Source: Mariprofundus sp. NF
GTDB taxonomy: Bacteria; Pseudomonadota; Zetaproteobacteria; Mariprofundales; Mariprofundaceae
NCBI RefSeq assembly: GCF_013387455.1
Contig: NZ_VWNC01000002.1
Location: 62,001-126,000, forward strand
Length of the DNA: 64,000 nucleotides
Direction of reading: 5' to 3'
Below are positions 21,834 through 34,546 of this stretch, in pieces. The notes under the pieces are model-generated. The model searched no databases. It was not told the DNA's origin and saw nothing but the letters and a program-made list of their open reading frames with translations. Every line of letters starts with the position of its first letter. Position 1 is the first letter of the stretch. A program made the translations under genes and the position numbers.

Positions 21834-24281
21834 TTAGATCTTCTCATCACTGATAATAGTCGGTGTAATGAAGATCAACAATTCATTGCGGTTATCCGAT
21901 TTCTGTTTGCGCTTAAAGAGATGACCAACAAACGGTATCTCCATAAGACCAGGTACTCCGCTAATCGTATCTGATGTTGTCTGGGAGTAGATGCCACCCA
22001 GTACTACCGTTTCGCCATTACGCACCAGCAGCTTGGTTACCACCTGCTTTTTGTCGATGGATGGAGCTCCGCCAGGCAGTGGATTATCAATAGGTGTATC
22101 CTTATTCACCACCAACTGCATGATAATACGTTTATCAGCGGTAATCTGAGGCGTCACCTTCAAAGCAAGCTTGGCACTCACCAGCGTTGTTGTAATAGTC
22201 GTCACACCACCGGTGAAGGTCGATGACTGGAACGGAATCTGACGGTCCTGCTCAATCAACGCTTCCTGCAGGTTGCTTGTGAATACACGCGGACTGGAAA
22301 CCACCTTGATATCACCAATCTGTTCGGCAGCCGAAAGTTCTAGGTTCAGATTCAGATTTCCACCAATTTTACCAAGCGTGTAACCAATGGCACCACCTGC
22401 TCCTGCTCCTACCGCGGCAGCCAAATCTACCACATTACCTCCACCTACTCCGCCGGTGAGATTCTGTGTATATTGGGTGGTATTTCTTGTCGCGTTCCCA
22501 CCCCAGCGGATACCCAAATCTCGAGCGAAAGAGTCAGTTGCCTCAACAATACGTGCTTCGATCAATACCTGCTGGGTAGGTTTATCGATCACTGCGACCA
22601 GGCGTTTGATATTATTCAATCGCTCACGTGTATCAGTGATAATCATCGTGTTACTACGCTCATCCAGCAGAATGGAACCACGACTGGAGAGAAGCTTCAG
22701 TTCACCGTCACCGGTAGAGCTACTGGTGGATTCCTTATTGGTCACATCTCCGCCAGTAACCTCACTCTTAACTGAGCCGCCCTGCAGAATAGTTTTCATA
22801 TCATTGACCGATGCGTAACCAAGCGTAATAAATTCGGTATCCAGTGGCGCAACCTCTTCAGCACTCGCCCTGGCCGCTTTTCTGGAATCGGAATCCGCCT
22901 TCAGCACATCCAGCGGGGCAATGCGGATCACGTTACCGCTCTGCTCTTTACCAAGGCCACGAGCCTGCAGAATCAGATCCAGAGCCTGATCCCAGGGCAC
23001 ATCGACAAGGCGCATAGTGAGCACACCAGATACATCATCTGACATGATAATGTTAAAATCGCTCATCTCTGCAATCAGCTGCAACGCATTGCGGATATCA
23101 ATATCTTTATAGCTGAAACTAACCTTCTGACCGGAATAGACCTTCTCATCTCTGACGGCAGCCTCATCGCTCTCAGAGACAGCAACCATATCCTGCGGTT
23201 TCATGGTAACAGTAAGCACATTGCCACTCTGATAGGAGGAGACCACTGCCTTCTGACGCAAGCGGGCTACAATACGAACATCTTTGTTCATGCCATAGCT
23301 GTCGATCTGTTTTACAGGTCCGGGGAAAGCACTCAAATCCTGCGAACGCTCTTGGCCCGAGGCCAGAGTAGCATTCTTCAGATCCAGGATGATTTTACCG
23401 TCCTCTTCCTGCAGGTTGATAATCGGGTTGGTCTCATTGGTGCGAACAACCAGATGCGCAACTCTATCATCGGGTTGAAAATCAACAGAATCGACAGTCA
23501 AACCTACAACGCTCTTCTTCGGTTCAATATTACCAAAACGAATCACCATACTATTGGCATCGGCATCGATCTGGTGGTTGGTACCTGCCCCTGTCCTTAG
23601 TGACAACACCAGACGCAAACGCCCCTCAGCTGAACCAATGGTAACATCATTCAGACGAAGCGCTGTATAGGTGTAATACTCCTTAGGTAGCTTAGATGAG
23701 CCTCCCCAGAAATCCAGCACCAGTGTCTTACCATCGTTAGTCACCAGTGCATTGTGATTGGCGTCCATATGTTCACCACGCAGAACCAGCTCGGTTACAC
23801 TGCCTCTGTCGCTAACAGAGATATCCTGCAGCTCAGCACCTTCACTCTGAGCCCCGGCTTTCATTTCTGAGGTAAAAGAGATCAGCAGGTCATTACCCTT
23901 CTCAGCAATCTCGTATTTGGCACCTTTGGCAAGCGCGATTTCGATACGTACGCCACTACTATCCTGCTGGGGAACGACAGCTGTGACCGCACCATCACCG
24001 GCAACCTCAGAGACGCCTTTAGCCATAGAGGCGTTGGGAAAGTTCAGTACAAGCCGGGTTGGGCCTTCAAGATTAAACACCTGATATTCTGCTGCTTCGT
24101 CCATAGCAATATTCAGACGCTGACCGGCTCGATCTGAAAGCAGATGCAAACCGTTAATGGTTGCCGCTTCAACTTGAGCACCATTCACACTGAGCAGCAG
24201 TGCCAGAGCCACAATACCCACTATTTTTCTGGGCAGCTGCAACAGCCTGCTTTCAGCCCAATGCTTCATGATAAACCCCAT
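21834..24281 (-). CDS. pilQ: Type IV pilus secretin PilQ
   Basis: Outer-membrane secretin through which the pilus fibre exits. From the ATG at 24281 the product is 815 residues: a signal peptide (IVGIVALALLLSVNGAQVEA), three AMIN-like peptidoglycan-binding segments (about 40-90, 140-220, 270-320), an STN/N0 domain (SFSYKDIDIRNALQLIAEM, about 385-440), an N1 domain, and the secretin barrel region with VPGLMEIPFVGHLFK near the C-terminus. The start at 24281 is preferred because GGGAG lies 7 bases upstream; an ATG at 24308 overlaps the pilO stop but has no good site. It follows pilO directly, with no pilP gene between them. Confidence 0.95.
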   Translation of the reverse strand: MGFIMKHWAESRLLQLPRKIVGIVALALLLSVNGAQVEAATINGLHLLSDRAGQRLNIAMDEAAEYQVFNLEGPTRLVLNFPNASMAKGVSEVAGDGAVTAVVPQQDSSGVRIEIALAKGAKYEIAEKGNDLLISFTSEMKAGAQSEGAELQDISVSDRGSVTELVLRGEHMDANHNALVTNDGKTLVLDFWGGSSKLPKEYYTYTALRLNDVTIGSAEGRLRLVLSLRTGAGTNHQIDADANSMVIRFGNIEPKKSVVGLTVDSVDFQPDDRVAHLVVRTNETNPIINLQEEDGKIILDLKNATLASGQERSQDLSAFPGPVKQIDSYGMNKDVRIVARLRQKAVVSSYQSGNVLTVTMKPQDMVAVSESDEAAVRDEKVYSGQKVSFSYKDIDIRNALQLIAEMSDFNIIMSDDVSGVLTMRLVDVPWDQALDLILQARGLGKEQSGNVIRIAPLDVLKADSDSRKAARASAEEVAPLDTEFITLGYASVNDMKTILQGGSVKSEVTGGDVTNKESTSSSTGDGELKLLSSRGSILLDERSNTMIITDTRERLNNIKRLVAVIDKPTQQVLIEARIVEATDSFARDLGIRWGGNATRNTTQYTQNLTGGVGGGNVVDLAAAVGAGAGGAIGYTLGKIGGNLNLNLELSAAEQIGDIKVVSSPRVFTSNLQEALIEQDRQIPFQSSTFTGGVTTITTTLVSAKLALKVTPQITADKRIIMQLVVNKDTPIDNPLPGGAPSIDKKQVVTKLLVRNGETVVLGGIYSQTTSDTISGVPGLMEIPFVGHLFKRKQKSDNRNELLIFITPTIISDEKI

Positions 24282-24307
24282 AACCTGTCTCCCGGCCAAA
24301 ATACGCA

Positions 24308-24922
24308 TTATCTGCGCCGGCCCTTACTATCGCTGTCGGCTTTCGCTTCAACAAACCTGTAGGTAACCGCCTGCCCTTTTACATTCAATTCGTTATCTTT
24401 CGCCTCAGACAAAGTAAGCCCTTTGATATCCACAATACGTGGCATCTCGCCCACCCGTTTCAAAAATGTCAGCAACTGACGGAAACTGCCTGTCACATCC
24501 AGATCAACAGGCACCTCGGCATAGATCTGCCGGGCCACTTCCCTGCCTGGTCTAAACTGTTTGAACTCAAGGCCGGAATCTTTTCCTGCCCACGACACAT
24601 TTTCCAGAAGATCCGGAATCTGTGACTTCTTGGGCAGCATATTCAGAGCCACCTTCAACTGCTTCTCAAGCTTGGCGTACTCTTTCTGTTTACGTGGCAG
24701 GTCATGCGCCAGACGCTGATTTTTGACCAGACGCATTTTCTGCATCGCAACCTGAGACTCCTGCTGGGTAATCTCCTCCTGCAGAGGAATCCAACCCAGA
24801 TAAACATAAGCTCCGGTGATCACTGCAAATGTCACAACCAGCGTCAATAGCTTCTGCCATGCAGGCAGTGGCAGAATCGGGCGCAGCCCTTCGTAGAGGG
24901 ACTCTTTCAGGGAATCAAACAT
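24308..24922 (-). CDS. pilO: Type IV pilus alignment protein PilO
   Basis: Inner-membrane protein of the PilMNOP alignment complex linking the cytoplasmic motor to the secretin. It has 204 residues: a short cytoplasmic start (KESLYEGLRPILPLP), one TM helix (about 25-45), a coiled coil (EEITQQESQVAMQKMRLVKN in part, about 50-100) and a ferredoxin-like periplasmic domain with the conserved SFRQLLTFLKRVGEMPRIV region. It overlaps pilN by the sequence TGATG. Its C-terminus is basic (DSKGRRR). No PilP-like domain is fused to it. Confidence 0.92.
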   Translation of the reverse strand: MFDSLKESLYEGLRPILPLPAWQKLLTLVVTFAVITGAYVYLGWIPLQEEITQQESQVAMQKMRLVKNQRLAHDLPRKQKEYAKLEKQLKVALNMLPKKSQIPDLLENVSWAGKDSGLEFKQFRPGREVARQIYAEVPVDLDVTGSFRQLLTFLKRVGEMPRIVDIKGLTLSEAKDNELNVKGQAVTYRFVEAKADSDSKGRRR

Positions 24923-25515
24923 CAGCCCTTACCCCCCTTGTTAGCCGCAGCACTCGCCTTCTTTCGGTCCGGAAGCTCATCAATGCGACTCATATTCAGG
25001 CTGAACGTTCTTACCGGCAGGCCATCAACTGTAATACGACTGATCACCAGTAGTTGAATATTCGAAAACAGCGGAGATTGGTCCAACTTGCGCATAAAGT
25101 TGGCAACTGCTTTATTGCTTTCACCAAGGCCAGAGAGTTCAATGGTATCTCCACCATCTTTCACCGACTTGATCCATACGTTGTCGGGAATCACCTTGGC
25201 AATCTCATGCAACGTTTTCAGAGAGCGGAAACGCCCCTCCTGCAACCTGTCGACAATATCAAGCTTGCGTTCCACATCACCACGCAGATTAGCAAGATTC
25301 TCAATTTTACCGATCTTCTTCTTCAGTTCAGCATTCTGTTGCTGCACACGAATCGTCTCCTCTTTGAGGTCGGAGAGCTGCATAGAAGCTGTGGTATGGG
25401 CGCCCATAGCAAGCAATACCGCGATAACAACCACGGCAAAGAAGATACTCAGATGATGAACAATCTGCTGCTGGCGTCTGGCATCGCGGTAGGGAATAAG
25501 GTTAATGCGAATCAT
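24922..25515 (-). CDS. pilN: Type IV pilus assembly protein PilN
   Basis: Bitopic inner-membrane partner of PilM and PilO, 197 residues. The N-terminal INLIPYRDARRQQQ is the classic PilM-binding motif. A TM helix at about 22-45, a coiled coil at about 50-95 and a ferredoxin-like periplasmic domain (IPDNVWIKSVKDGGDTIELSG in part) follow. It overlaps pilM by 4 bases (ATGA) and pilO by 3, so pilM-N-O are translationally coupled. Confidence 0.94.
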   Translation of the reverse strand: MIRINLIPYRDARRQQQIVHHLSIFFAVVVIAVLLAMGAHTTASMQLSDLKEETIRVQQQNAELKKKIGKIENLANLRGDVERKLDIVDRLQEGRFRSLKTLHEIAKVIPDNVWIKSVKDGGDTIELSGLGESNKAVANFMRKLDQSPLFSNIQLLVISRITVDGLPVRTFSLNMSRIDELPDRKKASAAANKGGKG

Positions 25516-26594
25516 GAATCGAAGCTCCGCATCGCAAGCCCGACAGGCACCATAAGCATAGGACCAATTCGCCTGATATGCTGTTCATCAAACTTTCGAG
25601 CCGGGATCTTGATACTATCAAATGGGTTTAGAATGGCCGTATCAATACCCAGTCGCTGCTCAAGTTCGGTAGCAATATTGGGGATCAGTGCACAGCCACC
25701 GGAGAGCAGAAGCTTACGCACAGGAAATTCAGCCCTGCTGGCAGAATAGAAATCAAGTGAACGCACCAACTCAGAGGTTAGCCCCATATAAAAACGCTCC
25801 AGAGCCTCTGGATGAACACTATCAAAATCATCTGTCTTCAACTGCTCGGCAGCCTGATAACTGATGTCATGCTCTTTCTGAATCTCTTCAGTCAGATTCT
25901 GACCGCCATAAAACTGATCACGCACAAATGCCATCTGGCCATTAATCAACACATTGATATTCATCATATTGGCGCCGATATTAATCAAAGCATGAACATC
26001 AGCATCCTCATCTGCCAACAGCTGCTCTCCACCCTTGGGAAGGGTATGCTGATCGGTCACCTCTGCACCATTTTCAAGAGCAAAGACAGCGCAATCCACA
26101 CATTTAGCCGTTAACCCGGCCTCGGCAAGCACCATCTGATAATCTTCGACAACTTCACGTTTGCAGGCTGCCAGCACCACATCCATATGCTCCGGATCAT
26201 CAGCTGTCATGCCCTGAATGAAAAAGTCGAGGAATACATCATCGATATCATAGGGAACATGCTGATCGGCCTCGTACTGGATCTGCGCCTCCAGCTCAAA
26301 TTCGCTCACTGTCGGAATGGTGATAGTTTTGATAATCACGGCATTACCTGAAACTGCTAAAGCGACGTTTTTAGTCGATGCTTTGGCGGCATTAACTGCC
26401 TCAACCAGTGCCTGTGTAACTGCAGCGGAGTCAATGATGGTATTTTCAACGATCGCATCGCGAGGTAGGGGAATCGTTGCCAGAGAGACAAGCTCAAAAC
26501 CTGAGCGCGAACGAGACAACTCAACCAGTTTGATCCCGGTCGAACTGATATCCACACCCATGATCCCTTCAGATCTGCTCGAAAAAAAGGACAC
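25512..26594 (-). CDS. pilM: Type IV pilus actin-like ATPase PilM
   Basis: Cytoplasmic FtsA/actin-fold protein of 360 residues that binds the PilN N-terminus and couples the motor to the envelope complex. The phosphate-binding segment GVDISSTGIKLVEL lies near the start and the adenosine region LLLSGGCALIPNI near 295-307. The start is GTG at 26594, supported by GGAGG five bases upstream. It is the first gene of pilM-N-O-Q. Confidence 0.95.
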   Translation of the reverse strand: MSFFSSRSEGIMGVDISSTGIKLVELSRSRSGFELVSLATIPLPRDAIVENTIIDSAAVTQALVEAVNAAKASTKNVALAVSGNAVIIKTITIPTVSEFELEAQIQYEADQHVPYDIDDVFLDFFIQGMTADDPEHMDVVLAACKREVVEDYQMVLAEAGLTAKCVDCAVFALENGAEVTDQHTLPKGGEQLLADEDADVHALINIGANMMNINVLINGQMAFVRDQFYGGQNLTEEIQKEHDISYQAAEQLKTDDFDSVHPEALERFYMGLTSELVRSLDFYSASRAEFPVRKLLLSGGCALIPNIATELEQRLGIDTAILNPFDSIKIPARKFDEQHIRRIGPMLMVPVGLAMRSFDS

Positions 26595-26785: not shown

Positions 26786-27604
26786 TTATGCGCTACCCAA
26801 CGAATCAGAAGAGGCCAACTGAAGTGTGGTTGAATCGTCATGGACCCGGCCGACCTGAGCCACAAAAACAGCAAGAAACAGACTGATCCCCACCATCTCA
26901 AGAAACTCCTCCAGAGACTTGGCAAAGTGATCAACCGTGTAATCCTCAAGCATATAGGCCTCTTTGAGCCAACTATACAGATTCAAGGCATGCTCTTTTG
27001 GCATACCTTCAATGAAATCAAGCACAACAGCAACGGCAAGACAGGAGAATGCTGCTATCACCATCAATAGCGGCCGCCCCACGCCCAGCACCCGCCAGAG
27101 AAAATAGAGCATATAGAGCCCAACCGCCGCAAAAAAAGGCAACAAAAACTGCCACTCATAACTGGGAAACATCTCCAGCCACTGCGAAAGGATGCCAACA
27201 TCCCCGCCATTTCCTGATTCAGCAACGATCTCTTCAAACATGGTACCCAACCGCTCATGAATCAATGCCCCGTCATCGGCTGACATATAGGAAAAAAACA
27301 GTGCCAGCACCAACCAGCCTCTGCGCTGAAGAGCTGTAGCACCATCAACAGTGCAACTAAGCCAGTAGAGGAGCCACAACACCAGTGCCGCCACCAGTGT
27401 TTGCGAAGTCATAAACCAGCCGGCCAGCCCATCTTCCCGGGCAATATTAAAAATCCGATGGATCGATCTGTATTCAATCACTTCGGCATAATTAATCACG
27501 ATATCAAGCAGCACGAGTAGCAACTCAATCGCGACGAGAAAAACCAGAACATGCCAGCTTAAGCGATCTGTATTCAGCACCAGTTGGCGTGATTCACTTG
27601 CCAT
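26786..27604 (-). CDS. Multi-pass membrane protein of unknown function
   Basis: A 272-residue integral membrane protein with about six predicted TM helices (near 16-38, 66-92, 98-116, 152-172, 180-205 and 230-250). A conserved-looking polar segment SADDGALIHERLG sits at the end of the third helix, with acidic and His residues near the membrane face; EGMPKEHALNLYSW is a second loop with charged residues. I recognise no named family. The start at 27604 is supported by AAGGAGA. It lies between pilM and the repeat-rich secreted protein genes and runs in the same direction, but a terminator precedes it, so it is probably transcribed alone. Confidence 0.75.
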   Translation of the reverse strand: MASESRQLVLNTDRLSWHVLVFLVAIELLLVLLDIVINYAEVIEYRSIHRIFNIAREDGLAGWFMTSQTLVAALVLWLLYWLSCTVDGATALQRRGWLVLALFFSYMSADDGALIHERLGTMFEEIVAESGNGGDVGILSQWLEMFPSYEWQFLLPFFAAVGLYMLYFLWRVLGVGRPLLMVIAAFSCLAVAVVLDFIEGMPKEHALNLYSWLKEAYMLEDYTVDHFAKSLEEFLEMVGISLFLAVFVAQVGRVHDDSTTLQLASSDSLGSA

Positions 27605-27654
27605 CAATATCTCCTTCATCCGTTCAGGCCATCATGCCAGAAAAGGGCATCTCA

Positions 27655-27703: not shown

Positions 27704-28078
27704 CTACTGCCCATAAATAGTTCGCTGCGAATTACCCCTTGCAGGTTTCACACTATCAGGCGGTTCCACGACAGGACAAGCGCCCAGAAGATCACCATGG
27801 GCAAGGTGAGCCGCAACAGCCCCCTCAGCAACAGAGAGGGTCTGCAGATTTTCCGGACTGCCCGGAGGGGCATGGCACAAGGTTACTTTATTATCATCTG
27901 ACGACTCGCTGTCTTCTGACCCCTTCTCACGTTTTTTATCTGCGTTTGACCTACTATCTTCTAAGTTATCTTTTTTCGAATATGCTGCCGACACATCATC
28001 AGAAAAAACACCTGCCTGAGCGCCAAAAGCAAACATCAACATGACTGAAAAAACAGTGACCAATAGATTATGCTTCAT
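27704..28078 (-). CDS. Secreted charged low-complexity protein 1 (CHxPPG module)
   Basis: A 124-residue exported protein. The signal peptide is MKHNLLVTVFSVMLMFAFGAQA. The mature start GVFSDDVSAAYS resembles those of the two genes upstream. A Lys/Asp/Ser/Glu-rich stretch of about 35 residues follows without an exact repeat. Next comes the cysteine module CHAPPGSPENLQTLSV...AAHLAHGDLLGAC (two cysteines and several histidines). The tail is Pro-rich and ends in RTIYGQ. I recall similar CHxPPGNPxN...AHLAHGD segments in many secreted bacterial proteins, but with no known function. The ATG has a GGAGTGAG site, and intrinsic terminators lie on both sides, so the gene is an independent unit. Confidence 0.75.
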   Translation of the reverse strand: MKHNLLVTVFSVMLMFAFGAQAGVFSDDVSAAYSKKDNLEDSRSNADKKREKGSEDSESSDDNKVTLCHAPPGSPENLQTLSVAEGAVAAHLAHGDLLGACPVVEPPDSVKPARGNSQRTIYGQ

Positions 28079-28092
28079 ATCTCACTCCATGA

Positions 28093-28143
28093 ATAAAAAC
28101 GGCGCCTCTCCTCATGCAAGGAAAGGCGCCGTTGATCTGCTTA
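28093..28143 (-). terminator. Intrinsic terminator of the KDSKS repeat gene
   Basis: AACGGCGCC (28098-28106) pairs perfectly with GGCGCCGTT (28135-28143), followed on the minus strand by a T5 tract. The GGCGCC core is shared with the terminator at 27655, hinting that gene and terminator were duplicated together. Confidence 0.82.
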
Positions 28144-28154
28144 TCAATAGAGCC

Positions 28155-28775
28155 TTACTGGCCCATAACTTCGCGATGCGATGATGAAGATGATGGAGAA
28201 ACCGAACCACCGGTACCGCCTGGTGTACCATCAGCACAAACACATGAACTCACGCCTGGAGGGCACACACAACTTGGAGCGCCACCGCCCGCATCAGGAT
28301 CAACACATTCACCCATGGAGTCGCCATGCGCCATATGTGCAGCTACAGCTGATTCACCAACAGAGAGCGTCTGCATATTCTCAGGGTTACCTGGAGGGTA
28401 GTGACAGATGGTCTCTTTATCCTCTTTATCTTTAGAACCACTGTCCTCTTTGGACTTGCTGTCTTTAGAACCACTGTCTTTGGACTTACTGTCTTTGGAC
28501 TTACTGTCTTTGGACTTACTGTCTTTGGACTTACTGTCTTTGGACTTACTGTCTTTGGACTTACTGTCTTTGGACTTACTGTCTTTGGACTTGCTGTCTT
28601 TGGACTTGCTGTCTTTAGACTTGCTGTCTTTAGACTTGGACTTGCTATCCGACTTGGACTTACTGTCCGATTTCGCATCTGCAGATGGAACATCAAAACT
28701 AAACGTTCCTGTCTCACTACTGAACGCAAACGTCAGCAGTGCTGCAAAGAAAATAACCAATACACTGTTTTTCAT
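28155..28775 (-). CDS. Secreted KDSKS-repeat protein 2 (both cysteine modules)
   Basis: A 206-residue exported protein. The signal peptide (VLVIFFAALLTFAFSS) is followed by the shared mature start TGTFSFDVPSADA. A tract of Lys-Ser-Asp repeats follows: ten KDSKS units, then KDSGS, then KDSKS, with irregular edges. Downstream are the module CHYPPGNPENMQTLSV...AAHMAHGDSMGEC and a second cysteine module CVCPPGVSSCVCADGTPGG. The tail is Ser-rich (SPSSSSSHREVMGQ). It therefore combines the modules found separately in the genes on either side. The ATG has an AGGAGAAGG site and the gene has its own terminator. The mature protein has no hydrophobic segment, so it is likely released or matrix-bound. 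Function unknown; metal or mineral interaction is only inference. Confidence 0.78.
   Translation of the reverse strand: MKNSVLVIFFAALLTFAFSSETGTFSFDVPSADAKSDSKSKSDSKSKSKDSKSKDSKSKDSKSKDSKSKDSKSKDSKSKDSKSKDSKSKDSKSKDSKSKDSGSKDSKSKEDSGSKDKEDKETICHYPPGNPENMQTLSVGESAVAAHMAHGDSMGECVDPDAGGGAPSCVCPPGVSSCVCADGTPGGTGGSVSPSSSSSHREVMGQ
28461..28640. repeat. Array of twelve 15-bp units inside the KDSKS gene
   Basis: GTCTTT starts recur at 28461, 28476, 28491 and so on to 28626, exactly every 15 bases, each encoding KDS plus KS or GS on the minus strand. The central units are identical at the DNA level and the outer ones differ by single third-position changes, a pattern expected from recent slippage expansion. 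Period 15 keeps the frame. Confidence 0.9.
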
Positions 28776-28949
28776 ATCCTTCTCCTCTCAATCTCTAAAT
28801 GGCTACTCCGCCATTGGACACACTATCAATCCGATAACTGCCCAATAATGCGACGCAGATCACATTTTCAACTTTTTTCCTGAAACATCACAGGCGTAAC
28901 TTTCACTACTATCAGAGTAAATATCGGTCAAATTCGGAACAACTTAAAT

Positions 28950-28982
28950 AATAAAAGCCGACATCCCATAGAGATGCCGGCT
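28950..28982 (-). terminator. Intrinsic terminator of the DDDDKSKSKS gene
   Basis: AGCCGACATC (28956-28965) pairs with GATGCCGGCT (28973-28982) with one mismatch, followed on the minus strand by TTTTATTATT. It lies 25 bases beyond the stop at 29007. Confidence 0.8.
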
Positions 28983-29006
28983 TGGAATTTAGAGTTCCTC
29001 TACGGA

Positions 29007-29474
29007 TTAATATGCGCGGTGGTGCGTTGGGCCTGCTGCAGTAGGGCTAAGCACCGAACCAGTTCCGGGAAGACCATCAGCACATGTACATGCTGAAATA
29101 CCTGGAGGGCACTCACAACTACCAGTCGATGCGACCGCATCGTCATCGTCACTACTGGCCTGTGAAGTGCTGTCGTCATCGCCACTGCTAATATCAAAAG
29201 TTTCATCGTCATCATCACTCTTGGACTTTGACTTATCGTCATCATCACTCTTGGACTTTGACTTATCGTCATCATCACTCTTGGACTTTGACTTATCGTC
29301 ATCATCACTCTTGGACTTTGACTTATCGTCATCATCGCTCTTGGATTTTGACTTGCTGTCATCATCGCCGGCAGCTGCAACTGGGATATCAAACGTCACA
29401 GTTCCACTCTGAACACTAAATCCAGTCAGCATGAAGAGCGCAGCAAATGCACTATATAGAATTGTCTTTTTCAT
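29007..29474 (-). CDS. Secreted DDDDKSKSKS-repeat protein 3 (CxCPPG module)
   Basis: A 155-residue exported protein starting at 29474 behind GAGGTGACAGG; an open extension to 29675 runs antisense-free into pilX and is not needed. A signal peptide (TILYSAFAALFMLTGFSVQS) precedes the shared mature start GTVTFDIPVAAA. Five KSKSKSDDDD units follow, then an acidic segment DETFDISSGDDDSTSQ and the cysteine module CECPPGISACTCADGLPG. The tail ends GPTHHRAY. It lacks the CHxPPG module present in the other two proteins. The alternating Asp4 and (Lys-Ser)3 blocks make the chain highly charged but near neutral. It is the first of three tandem relatives downstream of pilX. Confidence 0.78.
   Translation of the reverse strand: MKKTILYSAFAALFMLTGFSVQSGTVTFDIPVAAAGDDDSKSKSKSDDDDKSKSKSDDDDKSKSKSDDDDKSKSKSDDDDKSKSKSDDDDETFDISSGDDDSTSQASSDDDDAVASTGSCECPPGISACTCADGLPGTGSVLSPTAAGPTHHRAY
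29203..29370. repeat. 30-bp direct repeat array inside the DDDDKSKSKS gene
   Basis: A 30-base unit encoding DDDDKSKSKS on the minus strand recurs from 29221 at 29251, 29281, 29311 and 29341. Three to four copies are nearly identical and the last is diverged. The period of 30 preserves frame. Confidence 0.9.
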
Positions 29475-29587: not shown

Positions 29588-30571
29588 TTAATAGATAATC
29601 GCACGAATCAGATGGGTTGGTGCACCATTCACGTAACCGATGGCATAAGCTGCCACCCTGTATGGTGGATCCCACGCACCAGCGACAACCTGGCCATCGA
29701 GCCAGAGTCCTGAATTGGCATCACAGGCCCTCGAATTAGCAGTCGATGGCGATCCATCACACGGGCAGCCTGCACCAAGTGCTGTGCAAGCATCCACTGC
29801 CGATTCAGTTGCCCCCGGTTGTAGTGGAAATATTTCAATATCTGAATCAATTTCAGTTTTATCAGCTGCCGTAAGCCAGACAATAGCGCCATTATTGGGG
29901 ATATCTTCACCAACAATCGGACCAACGGTGGTAGTGGTCGGACTCCGGTGTGGCAGCTGTGGTATCGATGCTGTAATTGTGCCATTGTCAGCGATCTCCA
30001 GCTTGATATAACGCGGCAAAAGCGTACTGATATTAAACATCGTGGGCTGTGCTGCAATGAGCCTGTTATCTGTGGGGGCCAGCTGCACATTAATGCAATT
30101 GGGATAGGTTAGAGCCACCCCTGCTCCGGGATCAGGTTCAGAGTTGAAACAGATGGCGCGATTTGCCAAAGGGGTGTTGTCAAAATAGACAACCTGGCCA
30201 GCCAAGCCTGCTGCAGCTGTATCACTGATTGCTGTTGGCCCGGGATCGGAGAGGTAAGCATTCATCTCACTCATATCACCGGCAGTGTCGGCTGCAGGAG
30301 GTGTTGGGTCACCAAATGCTGCATGCCTGTAACTTCCAGCTGTATACGGAAAGTTGTCAAAATCTGCATCATTATGAAATGCCCAGTTGATATAGTTAAT
30401 CGCCGTTTCCGCATAATAGTAGGCTTCAGTTGAGCTCTGCGCAGAAGAGCTGGTCTGCGTTGCTGTGCGGCCGGTAAAGAACATTGCCAAAGACATGAGT
30501 GTCAGCAGACTCAACATGATCAGGGAAGTAATGAGAACAAAGCCCTTCTGATGATTCACTGTGGAGATCAT
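29588..30571 (-). CDS. pilX: Minor pilin assembly protein PilX
   Basis: A 327-residue PilX-type minor pilin. A short leader ending QKG precedes the hydrophobic FVLITSLIMLSLLTLMSLAMF segment with threonine/serine in place of Glu at +5, as in PilX/GspK-like proteins. The next segment, STEAYYYAETAINYINWAF, is the usual PilX helix. The large C-terminal domain contains a cysteine-rich loop (CTALGAGCPCDG) and ends in YAIGYVNGAPTHLIRAIIY. It is the last gene of the fimT-pilV-pilW-pilX operon, starting 1 base after the pilW stop. PilY1, which commonly follows, is not present. Confidence 0.85.
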   Translation of the reverse strand: MISTVNHQKGFVLITSLIMLSLLTLMSLAMFFTGRTATQTSSSAQSSTEAYYYAETAINYINWAFHNDADFDNFPYTAGSYRHAAFGDPTPPAADTAGDMSEMNAYLSDPGPTAISDTAAAGLAGQVVYFDNTPLANRAICFNSEPDPGAGVALTYPNCINVQLAPTDNRLIAAQPTMFNISTLLPRYIKLEIADNGTITASIPQLPHRSPTTTTVGPIVGEDIPNNGAIVWLTAADKTEIDSDIEIFPLQPGATESAVDACTALGAGCPCDGSPSTANSRACDANSGLWLDGQVVAGAWDPPYRVAAYAIGYVNGAPTHLIRAIIY

Positions 30572-30572
30572 A

Positions 30573-31130
30573 TTAGTTCCTCGGCCATGTATTGAACTGC
30601 AGGCTCAACTCTCTGGTCTGTTTGTTCTCATTAAGATACTCGGCAACCAGTGTCACAACCCAGATCCCGGTGGCACTGGAAGCGGTTAGTCCGGTTGCAC
30701 TCATGTCCCGGATCAGTTCCTGACAACCACCGGCGATATTCGGCTGATCCCAGCAGATATAGGGCGTTGGCTTGCCTCCTCCAACATTGGCAGCATTCAT
30801 ACGGAAAGCGCCGTTGGTTGCGTCCACCGTGTCACAGGTACCCAGAGCAACCACGCTATCCAGTGGTTGATAGATAATCTGATTGTTCGTGCCATCCCAG
30901 CAGATATCCTGACCACCCCTCAGCTCCGCCTGCATCAGATGGGATACAAGATAGAGATCAGCCATGCGCTCCCCCCTTGAGGTTACGGCTCGCGAAGCAT
31001 CGTTCATGGAAACAAACATCATGGTTAAACCGGCCAGTATGATCAGCCCCATCGCCATGCCGATCATCATCTCAATCAGGGTAAATCCTGCTTCATCAGA
31101 CAAGGTCATATCCACGCGATCACTTATCAT
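30573..31130 (-). CDS. pilW: Minor pilin PilW
   Basis: A 185-residue minor pilin. The prepilin motif AGFTLIEMMIGMAMGLIILAG follows a 14-residue leader, with Gly-1 and Glu+5 conserved. SRGERMADLYLVSHLMQAELR is characteristic of PilW. Four later cysteines (in ICWDG, GTCD, ICWDQ, GGCQ) likely form disulfides in the globular head. It overlaps pilV by 4 bases. PilW helps prime pilus assembly together with PilV, PilX and FimT/FimU. Confidence 0.87.
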   Translation of the reverse strand: MISDRVDMTLSDEAGFTLIEMMIGMAMGLIILAGLTMMFVSMNDASRAVTSRGERMADLYLVSHLMQAELRGGQDICWDGTNNQIIYQPLDSVVALGTCDTVDATNGAFRMNAANVGGGKPTPYICWDQPNIAGGCQELIRDMSATGLTASSATGIWVVTLVAEYLNENKQTRELSLQFNTWPRN

Positions 31131-31651
31131 GGCATCTTCGTCATATGGGTAAGGAATACGGATCGTGAGTTGCCCTTATTCAACCACGACACGGTCACCA
31201 CCTTTGTCCACGGGGTAATAGTACCAACCATATCCCTTACACCCACAGCACCATTATTGTTAATACCTGCAAAGCTATTGTTTGGAAGTGACGGCAAGGG
31301 TGCCTGAGCAACGGATCTGTTTACTACTATGGTGTAGCTTATGCCAATACCTGCATCCGGCGTACAGCTAACGGTTACCGGATACCCTGCCGGGTCGGCT
31401 CCCAGAGTAGTCAACCCACAAGTGCCGACGGCAATACTTGGTGGCCGATCATTCGCGTCATTCTGCCAGAACTCCAGAACCTGCTCAGCCAGATGTACCG
31501 CTGTCAGTCGCTCCCGTGAAACCTGGCCGCTACCCATAATGGAGATACCGAAGCCACCGAGTGCCAGCACGCCAACTGAGACAATGACCAGCGCCACCAA
31601 GATCTCAATCAGTGTAAAACCTCGCTCAGAATGCATGCTATTCAATATCAT
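31127..31651 (-). CDS. pilV: Minor pilin PilV
   Basis: A 174-residue minor pilin. The leader SERG precedes FTLIEILVALVIVSVGVLALGG, the PilV/GspI-type N-terminal helix with a glycine-leucine rich pattern. AVHLAEQVLEFWQND is the expected following helix, and two cysteines (GTCG, VSCT) lie in the globular part. It overlaps both fimT and pilW by 4 bases, so the operon is translationally coupled throughout. Confidence 0.87.
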   Translation of the reverse strand: MILNSMHSERGFTLIEILVALVIVSVGVLALGGFGISIMGSGQVSRERLTAVHLAEQVLEFWQNDANDRPPSIAVGTCGLTTLGADPAGYPVTVSCTPDAGIGISYTIVVNRSVAQAPLPSLPNNSFAGINNNGAVGVRDMVGTITPWTKVVTVSWLNKGNSRSVFLTHMTKMP

Positions 31652-32145
31652 TGGAAGTATGCCCTGCCGACTATATTAATAGTAATTTGATTGCTCTGAG
31701 CACCAGCCTGAAGAGTCATATTACCAAAATTCACGGTTCCCCGACTGTTAAATGTCCGATCAGTCGGAACCGCTGTAAAAGCCGCGGAGCCAAACTGAGT
31801 TAAATCCATCTGAAGGTTCCGGCAGGTGCCACAAGCGCCAGTGTCGTAGGTGTAAGCCGTGGTTGAGGTGAAATCAATTGTCACACTCCTGTTCTCCGCG
31901 ATAGCGGTCACCCGCGCCTGTTTCAGATGGGACATCAATGTTTGAGTTGCACTGCGAACTGCCTGCCTGTCTCGCCATTCGGAAAAGGCGGGGATCGCAA
32001 TCGTGCTCATCACGCCAATAATGACAACGACAATCATCACTTCGATCAGCGTGAAACCGCGCTGTTTTGACGAGCAAGAGAGAGGCGTAAAAACTCCGGC
32101 TTGCCTGAGCCGTGTGCTTCCGCTTGAATTCGGGTCAATGCGCAT
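31648..32145 (-). CDS. GspH/FimT-type minor pilin
   Basis: A 165-residue pseudopilin of the FimT/FimU group. The prepilin motif is RGFTLIEVMIVVVIIGVMST, followed by IPAFSEWRDRQAVRSATQTL and the GspH-like beta domain with a cysteine pair (GACGTC). The nearest start is the ATG at 32145, which gives an unusually long leader of about 30 residues before the cleavage glycine; further ATGs at 32154 and upstream make it longer still. The start codon overlaps the divergent mrcA start. It is the first gene of the minor pilin operon. Confidence 0.83.
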   Translation of the reverse strand: MRIDPNSSGSTRLRQAGVFTPLSCSSKQRGFTLIEVMIVVVIIGVMSTIAIPAFSEWRDRQAVRSATQTLMSHLKQARVTAIAENRSVTIDFTSTTAYTYDTGACGTCRNLQMDLTQFGSAAFTAVPTDRTFNSRGTVNFGNMTLQAGAQSNQITINIVGRAYFQ

Positions 32146-34546
32146 CCTATCCATTATCGCGAAAATCCTTATCTCCTTGAGCCTGCTAGCTGTGATGGGC
32201 ATCACAATAGGTTATCTTCTCTTCTCCAGCAACCTGCCTAAACTTACCGCACTCTCCGACTACCAGCCACCACTGGTATCCCGTGTTTATAACAGTGACG
32301 GTGAACTGATCGCCGAATATGCCGACGAACACCGTATCCTGACGCCATTTAATCAGATTCCGAAGATGCTCACTCAGGCATTCCTTGCCGCTGAAGACCA
32401 GCAGTTTTACGAACATCCCGGCATCAATCCTGCCCGCATCCTCTCCGCGGCACTGGCTAATTTGCGTGCAGGCCACACTGTGCAGGGCGGCTCAACCATT
32501 ACCCAGCAGGTGGCAAAAAACTTCCTGCTCACCTCAGAGCGCTCCTACACCCGCAAAATCCGTGAAGCGATCCTCGCCTATCGTATTGAAAAATCGTTCT
32601 CCAAAGATGATATCCTCTACCTCTATCTGAATCAGATCTATCTCGGACGCGGCTCTTATGGTGTCGCATCTGCTGCATGGCGCTACTTTCACAAACCGCT
32701 GAATGAATTGACACTGGCTGAGTGTGCCACCATTGCCGGTATGCCGAAATCTCCGGGTAGATATGCACCGCACATCAATCCTGAAAAAGCGACGCAACGA
32801 CGCAATACTGTGTTGCACCTGATGCAGAACAGCGGCTTTGCCAGCCAGATCGAAGTTGAAATGGCAACGCGCGAGCCGATGATCGTTACTGATCTGGAAG
32901 CGCCAAAACTCAATGACGCTTATGCCGATCTGGTCGTGCGTCAGCTGACTGAACGTTTCGGATTGAAAACCCTGCGCAGGCAGGGGCTGACGATTATCGT
33001 ACCGTTTGATCCGATAGCACAGAATGCAGCCATCCGCGCAGTGCGTCACGGTGTGCTCGATATCGAACAGCGCCAACACTACCGCTACCCGGTCAACCAC
33101 CCTTCCGAAACCTGGATGGCACTGCTGGAGAGTTGGAAGAAAGTCCGCGAGGGCAAACCTGTTGCTCCGGCCACAGATGAGATCATTCCGGCACTGGTAA
33201 CCAAGGTAGCGCGCAATGGTGATTTGACTGTTAATGATGGCAGAAACCTTTGGAAGCTAAGTAAACCTGGCTGGGGCTGGAAGCCGATTTCTGAATACAA
33301 AAAAGAGGGTGCAACTGAAGAGCAACTGGCTGAACTGCAAAAACACCCCCGCAGATGGATCAAGGGCGATGAGATCCGATTGCAGGGGACAGCCAAGCAA
33401 GGCGTTCGTCTTGCGCAGGAGCCATCGATTGAATCCTCCCTCTACGCCATCGACATGGAACGCGGCACGGTGCTGGCACGTGTTGGCGGTTATGATTACC
33501 AGACAGCCGGCTTTGATCGCGTGCATCAGGCGATGCGCCAGCCGGGCAGTGCATTCAAACCGCTCCTCTACACCTCAGCCCTGACCAGCGGCTCAACCCC
33601 TGCCACCATTGTCATGGATACACCTGTGGTGTTCGACAGCAGTACCAGTGATGATTTCTGGCGTCCTGAAAACTATAAAGACAAGTTTGCCGGCCCTGTT
33701 CCACTGCGCAATGCACTGGAGCATTCGCGCAATCTCGCCTCGATCAAGGTGTTGCAGAATGTCGGTATCAGACGTTTTCTTAATGATCTCGAACTCTACC
33801 CGCTGGAGCGAAAGTTCCCGCCCCAGCTGGCACTGGCACTCGGTGCAACCGAGGTCTCCCTTGAAGCTCTCACCAACTCCTACACCGTCATGGCCGATCA
33901 GGGTCAGAAGTGGACACCCGTCTCCATTCAGCAGGTGCAGGATCGCACCGGCAATACCCTGCACCGATCTGTGTCAGGCAATCGCTGTCAGGTCTGCCAT
34001 GTTGATCCGGTTATGTCGGCCAGCGACAGCATGCGCCCTGCCCAGCGCGTACTCGATCCTGTTGATAGTTTCCTGATCACCAACATCATGAAAGGTGTTG
34101 TCGAACGCGGCACAGGCCGCCGTGCCCGCGCCCTCAACCGTCCGGCCGCAGGCAAAACCGGCACCACCAACAAACAGGTTGATGCCTGGTTTATGGGTTA
34201 TACACCACAGGTACTTACCGGCGTCTGGTCAGGACGCGATACACCAACGCCGATGGGCCGTAGTGAAACCGGCGCCAGAGCCGCCCTGCCAACATGGTTG
34301 GAATCGATGCAGGCCTTCCACAAAGGGCGTCCCGTCGTGGACTTCACGCCACCTGAAGGTATTGAGTGGGTTGTCATTGATGATAAAACCGGACTACTGC
34401 CCGGCCCTGATAGTGAAGAGGTGTTTCTGGAAGCCTTCCGTAGCGGCACTGCGCCAACTGAAGAGACACCTGCGTTAGAGGGGAGTGATGCAGATCAGAA
34501 TCAGCCGCCCAAAGAGGATACCGGTTTCTTCGGTCTGGGCCTCTAA
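32138..34546 (+). CDS. mrcA: Penicillin-binding protein 1A
   Basis: Bifunctional peptidoglycan glycosyltransferase/transpeptidase anchored in the inner membrane. From the ATG at 32138 it has 802 residues: N-terminal TM helix (about 10-30), GT51 glycosyltransferase domain (EDQQFYEHPGI, GGSTITQQVAKNF), an OB-like insert, then the transpeptidase domain with SxxK in PGSAFKP, SxN in HSRNLAS and KTGTTN. A longer frame from 32003 is antisense to fimT and is rejected. The start has no obvious Shine-Dalgarno and overlaps the fimT start on the other strand. An acidic Pro/Glu-rich C-terminal tail follows the catalytic domain. Confidence 0.95.
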   Translation: MRILSIIAKILISLSLLAVMGITIGYLLFSSNLPKLTALSDYQPPLVSRVYNSDGELIAEYADEHRILTPFNQIPKMLTQAFLAAEDQQFYEHPGINPARILSAALANLRAGHTVQGGSTITQQVAKNFLLTSERSYTRKIREAILAYRIEKSFSKDDILYLYLNQIYLGRGSYGVASAAWRYFHKPLNELTLAECATIAGMPKSPGRYAPHINPEKATQRRNTVLHLMQNSGFASQIEVEMATREPMIVTDLEAPKLNDAYADLVVRQLTERFGLKTLRRQGLTIIVPFDPIAQNAAIRAVRHGVLDIEQRQHYRYPVNHPSETWMALLESWKKVREGKPVAPATDEIIPALVTKVARNGDLTVNDGRNLWKLSKPGWGWKPISEYKKEGATEEQLAELQKHPRRWIKGDEIRLQGTAKQGVRLAQEPSIESSLYAIDMERGTVLARVGGYDYQTAGFDRVHQAMRQPGSAFKPLLYTSALTSGSTPATIVMDTPVVFDSSTSDDFWRPENYKDKFAGPVPLRNALEHSRNLASIKVLQNVGIRRFLNDLELYPLERKFPPQLALALGATEVSLEALTNSYTVMADQGQKWTPVSIQQVQDRTGNTLHRSVSGNRCQVCHVDPVMSASDSMRPAQRVLDPVDSFLITNIMKGVVERGTGRRARALNRPAAGKTGTTNKQVDAWFMGYTPQVLTGVWSGRDTPTPMGRSETGARAALPTWLESMQAFHKGRPVVDFTPPEGIEWVVIDDKTGLLPGPDSEEVFLEAFRSGTAPTEETPALEGSDADQNQPPKEDTGFFGLGL

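Follow-up and report, generated by a model that had tools for sequence, protein, structure and literature searches.

Three exported repeat proteins between pilX and pilM

The window, that is, the whole 64,000-nucleotide stretch of the Mariprofundus sp. NF genome that was analyzed, carries on its minus strand the gene order fimT-pilV-pilW-pilX, P3, P2, P1, a membrane protein gene, and pilM-N-O-Q (Table 1), and transcription runs from pilX through P3 and P2 to P1. The three minus-strand open reading frames with secreted repeat products that the preliminary description had reported (P1 to P3, here referred to as the cassette) were all present between pilX and pilM, and their modules were arranged as described there, with module A in P1 and P2 and module B in P2 and P3. 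Searches of the cassette proteins against Pfam and NCBIfam returned only sub-threshold low-complexity matches, which were disregarded. Between 21834 and 24922, pilO directly adjoins pilQ, without a distinct pilP gene visible between the two.

Table 1. Features of the cassette and the surrounding pilus genes, in window positions
Feature	Position	Strand	Description
fimT/gspH-like	31648-32205	-	Minor pilin gene
pilV	31127-31651	-	Minor pilin gene
pilW	30573-31130	-	Minor pilin gene
pilX	29588-30571	-	Minor pilin, proposed docking partner
P3	29007-29474	-	155 aa, ATG at 29474; signal peptide, DDDDKSKSKS repeats, module B, tail THHRAY
P3 long signal peptide	29373-29474	-	
P3 tandem repeats	29205-29366	-	30-bp unit, DDDDKSKSKS
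P3 module B	29067-29117	-	CECPPGISACTCADGLP
P3 C-terminal tail	29010-29030	-	PTHHRAY; class with R-S/A-F/Y end elsewhere
Hairpin after P3	28955-28983	-	Intrinsic-terminator-like
P2	28155-28775	-	206 aa; signal peptide, KDSKS repeats, modules A and B, tail SHREVMGQ
P2 long signal peptide	28674-28775	-	34 aa up to AxA
P2 tandem repeats	28447-28670	-	15-bp unit KDSKS, then two 18-bp units
P2 module A	28305-28415	-	ETICHYPPGNP...AAHMAHGDSMGEC; compact beta-beta-alpha unit
P2 module B	28221-28271	-	CVCPPGVSSCVCADGTP
P2 C-terminal tail	28158-28181	-	SHREVMGQ; conserved, PilY1-tail-like
Hairpin after P2	28098-28133	-	Intrinsic-terminator-like
P1	27704-28078	-	124 aa; signal peptide, irregular charged region, module A, tail SQRTIYGQ
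P1 signal peptide	27986-28078	-	
P1 module A	27776-27886	-	
P1 C-terminal tail	27707-27730	-	SQRTIYGQ; conserved
Hairpin after P1	27659-27685	-	GC-rich
Membrane protein	26786-27619	-	Multi-helix, companion of the cassette
pilM, pilN, pilO, pilQ	21834-26594	-	Alignment complex and secretin, assigned by sequence and gene order

Export of P1 to P3 was supported by the signal peptides read from the sequence. The string G(T/V)F..DVPSADA, which had been taken for the start of the mature proteins, more probably forms the latter half of a long signal peptide; family-wide, the signal peptide has a median length of about 33 amino acids, and a conserved AxA marks its end immediately before the repeats. 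At the DNA level, the P2 array consists of 12.7 copies of a 15-bp unit and the P3 array of 5.4 copies of a 30-bp unit, and the encoded repeats have net charges of +13 and -12, respectively. The strong terminator-like hairpins after P2 and P3 suggest separate, perhaps abundant transcripts.

Module A spans 37 residues, of which C, H, G, A, A, H, H, G, D, G, and C are invariant within the genus. AlphaFold predicted it as a confident beta-beta-alpha unit (pLDDT above 90), with module B and the tail less certain. The module has no Pfam entry, a PDB sequence search with it and a literature text search with its string were without a match, and Foldseek and VIA-align comparison of the model of module A, module B, and tail gave no match with an E value of 0.001 or below (best Z, 2.9). 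With one module A pattern, 273 coding matches came from many bacterial and archaeal phyla of the genome collection (loci L074 to L149 among those noted), often flanked by D/S/G/K-rich, low-complexity acidic or Ser-rich linkers, and only 5 matches came from IMG/VR. The CHxPPGNP...AHxxHGDxxGxC module in secreted proteins of Bacteroidota, Planctomycetota, Chloroflexota, Nitrososphaerota, and other phyla is the same domain, whereas in Mariprofundus it is an optional insert of a pilus-linked family with a tail of its own. Judged by its sequence, module A is an unnamed secreted domain that crosses phyla; it is an accessory that other proteins share, and it does not define the pilus-linked family.

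Distribution of the family and its place after pilX

The preliminary description had named two checks, homologues in relatives and linkage to pilX, and both were run. Of the 23 genomes of the genus, 21 contained relatives of the cassette proteins, among them all 16 of good quality, indicating that the open reading frames are not chance occurrences. Members in the genus mostly stand in tandem sets of two to four, and the closest named relatives found were M. micogutta, Mariprofundus sp. KV, and M. ferrooxydans PV-1. The signal peptide, the modules, and the tail are conserved, whereas the repeats turn over: the P2 proteins of the window (genome G000) and of genome G009 agree at 31 of 34 signal-peptide positions and over almost all of the C-terminal part, but the repeat unit is KDSKS in the former and SDSKSK in the latter. 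In several genomes, a long repeat interrupts module A between its CH start and the helix, indicating that such a repeat behaves as an extruded loop. The gain and loss of modules that had been read from the three genes was also seen among relatives, since the P3 orthologues of G009 and G006 have a short A module that is absent from the P3 of the window, and the third gene of G005 encodes both A and B, whereas P1 has A only. The conserved C-termini (RTIYGQ, REVMGQ, and HHRAY) and two paralogues on another contig were features beyond the preliminary description. These paralogues (locus L068, G000:C3:294204-296142), module A proteins that each end in YSMRSIYGQ, form a further tandem pair of the same genome outside the pilus locus. 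Some tail-bearing paralogues of the family sit outside pilus loci.

In a survey of the class, 78 Zetaproteobacteria genomes were searched and their pilus loci were read. Besides Mariprofundus, seven genera, two of them from another family, have a member protein in the slot directly 3' of pilX. At 24 of the 34 pilX loci, the window counted (8 genera, 2 families), the next gene encodes a secreted protein with the tail or its R-S/A-F/Y/L variant. The exceptions were a FadL-type gene, unrelated insertions, a contig end, and genus g6. In four genomes (L221:5383-6666, L222, L223, and L236), the gene directly after pilX encodes a FadL/TodX-type outer membrane protein and stands in for the cassette. 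In these genomes (G008, G011, G013, and G019), the cassette is found away from pilX, together with the membrane neighbor. The membrane protein itself was found in 18 of the 78 Zetaproteobacteria and, in the loci read, stood beside pilX or the cassette; it had no Pfam match, and structure comparison gave only weak matches to helical bundles.

In genus g6, which is probably the amorphous-oxide former Ghiorsea, pilX is followed by the membrane protein and next by a Cys protein with D/S repeats, whose C-terminus is FQPF or closely similar. At the g6 loci L232, L233, and L235, the secreted D/S-repeat proteins carry CxC pairs, are encoded between the membrane protein gene and pilM, and end in (A/T)FQ(P/A)F, not in REIxGQ. 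This ending may represent a tail variant belonging to the same slot.

Other genes are inserted beside or inside the cassette elsewhere (L050:9180-13549, L051:5788-8640, L052:3631-6438, L201:3649-6519, and L202:6087-10406). They encode a spermine-synthase-like multi-TM protein with TPRs and multi-TM proteins of 490 to 510 amino acids; an insertion in genome G068 consists of GT2, NAD-epimerase-like, and DegT genes. Together, the inserted genes hint at glycosylation of the Ser-rich repeats.

C-terminal tails and the absence of PilY1

At the extreme C-terminus, nearly all members share the consensus (S/A)-(Y,F,L,H,M)-R-(E,S)-(I,V)-x-G-(Q,N,E,K), and the first-gene class of Mariprofundus ends in R-(S/A)-(F/Y/L). 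The pattern R[EDSQTN][ILV]xGx-COOH matched none of 446 control open reading frames, the sole match being P2 itself, and R[SA][FYL]-COOH matched none of 447. A tail scan of the strain's own genome gave 19 pattern matches, as many as in the reversed control, and brought up nothing new; 4 of the 19 were known family members, and none of seven others that were inspected was a secreted protein of the cassette kind.

PilY1 is often regarded as part of the type IVa pilus tip. Like the gene for PilY1/PilC (PF05567), the cassette comes directly after pilX in the minor pilin cluster, and its products share with PilY1/PilC a signal peptide, a variable outer part, and a conserved C-terminal part, in which the cassette tail resembles the S-W-R-E-I/L tail of PilY1. 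In contrast to PilY1/PilC, the cassette proteins have no beta-propeller, are roughly 5 to 12 times smaller, have a body of low-complexity polyampholyte with tiny Cys modules, and are encoded in several tandem copies. The C-terminal seven-bladed beta-propeller (PF05567) was searched for in P1 to P3 and not found, and they therefore do not belong to PilY1 proper.

PilY1 (PF05567) was detected in none of the 78 Zetaproteobacteria; as a positive control, the same profile matched 30 of the 120 genomes of a phylum sample. Because PilY1 is absent from the class, the ends of the PilY1 proteins from the phylum sample were examined. W[RHQ]x[ILVFY], mostly as GRxSWRE(I/L), ended 15 of 24 nonredundant PilY1 proteins and 6 of 447 controls. 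Cassette tails such as SYREIRGE, SFREIMGQ, SYREIYGQ, SFREINGQ, and AFREIKGK, some of them from other Zetaproteobacterial genera, match the PilY1 tail but for the Trp. For a test of this resemblance, tails were selected by gene position only and not by their C-terminus. These positional tails scored above the controls on a PilY1-trained profile (AUC, 0.74; P = 3e-6; per genus, P = 5e-5), and only 5 of 32 lay past the 99th percentile of the control score, indicating that the resemblance is significant for the group and modest for single tails. The aromatic residue is missing from most Mariprofundus tails, and the P3 class (RS[FY]) and genus g6 (FQPF) deviate. In single-chain prediction, the tail had a low pLDDT of 55 to 61.

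In a published tip model of Myxococcus, AlphaFold-Multimer places the last 8 residues of PilY1 as a beta-strand added to PilX (PMC11046646). In Kingella, losing the minor pilins has the same phenotype as losing PilC1 and PilC2, which are homologues of PilY1 (PMC12607826).

A candidate pilus tip function and its alternatives

Three findings, namely, the location directly after pilX, the conserved tail, and the lack of PilY1, speak for the type IV pilus and not for the metal, mineral, or stalk role that the preliminary description had suggested. The pilus machinery is present: pilM, pilN, pilO, pilQ, and minor pilin genes lie in the window, and a PilT-family ATPase was found in 23 of 23 genomes of the genus. 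We propose, with a probability of about 0.5, that P1 to P3 are type IVa pilus-associated exported proteins of the Zetaproteobacteria that fill the genomic, and probably also the functional, slot of the tip adhesin PilY1. The occurrence of small, fast-changing secreted repeat proteins with PilY1-like last residues in the gene position of PilY1 suggests a new kind of pilus tip protein.

In the proposed sequence of events, the proteins would be exported by Sec through their long signal peptides, and the small Cys modules would fold in the periplasm, probably with disulfides. The extreme C-terminal strand (S-aromatic/hydrophobic-R-E/S-I/V-x-G-Q) would then dock on the minor-pilin cap, most likely on PilX, by beta-strand addition as modeled for PilY1; we infer this docking from the tail resemblance, the gene position, and the absence of PilY1. 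The complex would leave the cell with the pilus via the PilQ secretin and would display at the pilus tip, or release from it, an arm that is disordered, highly charged, and fast-evolving and carries one or two Cys modules. Such an arm may stick to charged surfaces, whether oxide, polysaccharide, or other cells, and with several tail-bearing alternatives encoded in each genome, the tips would be exchangeable. As working analogies, PilY1 comes closest for docking by the C-terminus, and TcpF/CofJ for a small pilus-exported protein with a terminal docking peptide.

TcpF and CofJ, small proteins exported by type IVb pili with a terminal docking peptide (PMC9565799), also provide a rival explanation, in which the cassette proteins are cargo that is exported by the pilus and then released as soluble or matrix proteins, the tail binding a minor pilin in transit only. 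This appears rather doubtful. TcpF and CofJ are indeed pilus-operon proteins bound by a minor pilin via a short terminal peptide, a recognition that is shown there and proposed here, and the several small proteins per genome would suit cargo. The terminators, as far as they suggest separate and perhaps abundant transcripts, would likewise favor released cargo and count against a stoichiometric tip subunit. However, the signal of TcpF/CofJ is an N-terminal aromatic peptide on globular domains in a type IVb system, whereas the conserved end of the cassette proteins is a PilY1-like C-terminus behind a disordered body in a type IVa system. No N-terminal aromatic signal of this type was present in the first 15 mature positions of P2 and P3, as defined by the predicted AxA cut sites; these positions are K/S/D-rich. 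That the tail is instead a sorting or processing signal for a periplasmic or outer-membrane factor, such as the neighboring membrane protein, and is linked to the pilus through shared regulation only, is improbable. A short conserved C-terminus behind a variable linker is typical of sorting tags, and the membrane protein stays with the cassette even away from pilX, but tails occur without the membrane protein gene in G001 to G004 and in other genomes, and the tail has no transmembrane anchor.

Binding of metal, mineral, or polysaccharide by the cassette proteins is possible. As an explanation without a pilus mechanism, in which the charged repeats and Cys/His modules would bind iron or polysaccharide for matrix formation or mineral templating (stalk, dread, or oxide binding), it is unlikely. 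The charged repeats of P2 and P3, the richness of module A in His, Cys, and Asp, and the iron-oxidizing host are in keeping with it; the retention of the place after pilX in 8 genera and the occurrence of module A in many phyla without iron oxidation are not. When restriction to stalk formers was tested as a criterion of membership, relatives were found in G001 and G003, which are probably the dread-forming strains CP-5 and CP-8, and a variant was found in g6, indicating that the family is not linked to stalk formation. The known stalk candidate cluster is sfz (PMC8250860), which likewise has a Zetaproteobacterial surface function but differs, when compared by description, in having polysaccharide-type genes at another place (PMC8250860), none of which was recognized in the cassette. 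The differing repeat units of close relatives beside a fixed signal peptide and tail would also be expected of decoys, that is, fast-varying tip proteins that evade pilus-binding phages and adhere only secondarily, but slippage of tandem repeats gives the same pattern without selection, and this explanation is very improbable.

An association of P1 to P3 with the pilus tip would bear on how Zetaproteobacteria hold and sense iron-oxide surfaces. More tentatively, and at somewhat less than even odds, the whole class may have swapped PilY1 for exchangeable disordered polyampholyte tip proteins that are plugged in by a short C-terminal strand, with tip specificity set by tandem repeats and swappable Cys modules and not by a large folded adhesin. 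A side gain of the analysis is module A as an unnamed secreted domain spread over bacteria and archaea. For overlooked tip proteins, the cassette provides a sequence rule, namely, a signal peptide and a C-terminal S-aromatic-R-E-I in a protein encoded beside pilX. If the proposal is true, the docking tail, and not the propeller, would be the unit of exchange at the pilus tip.
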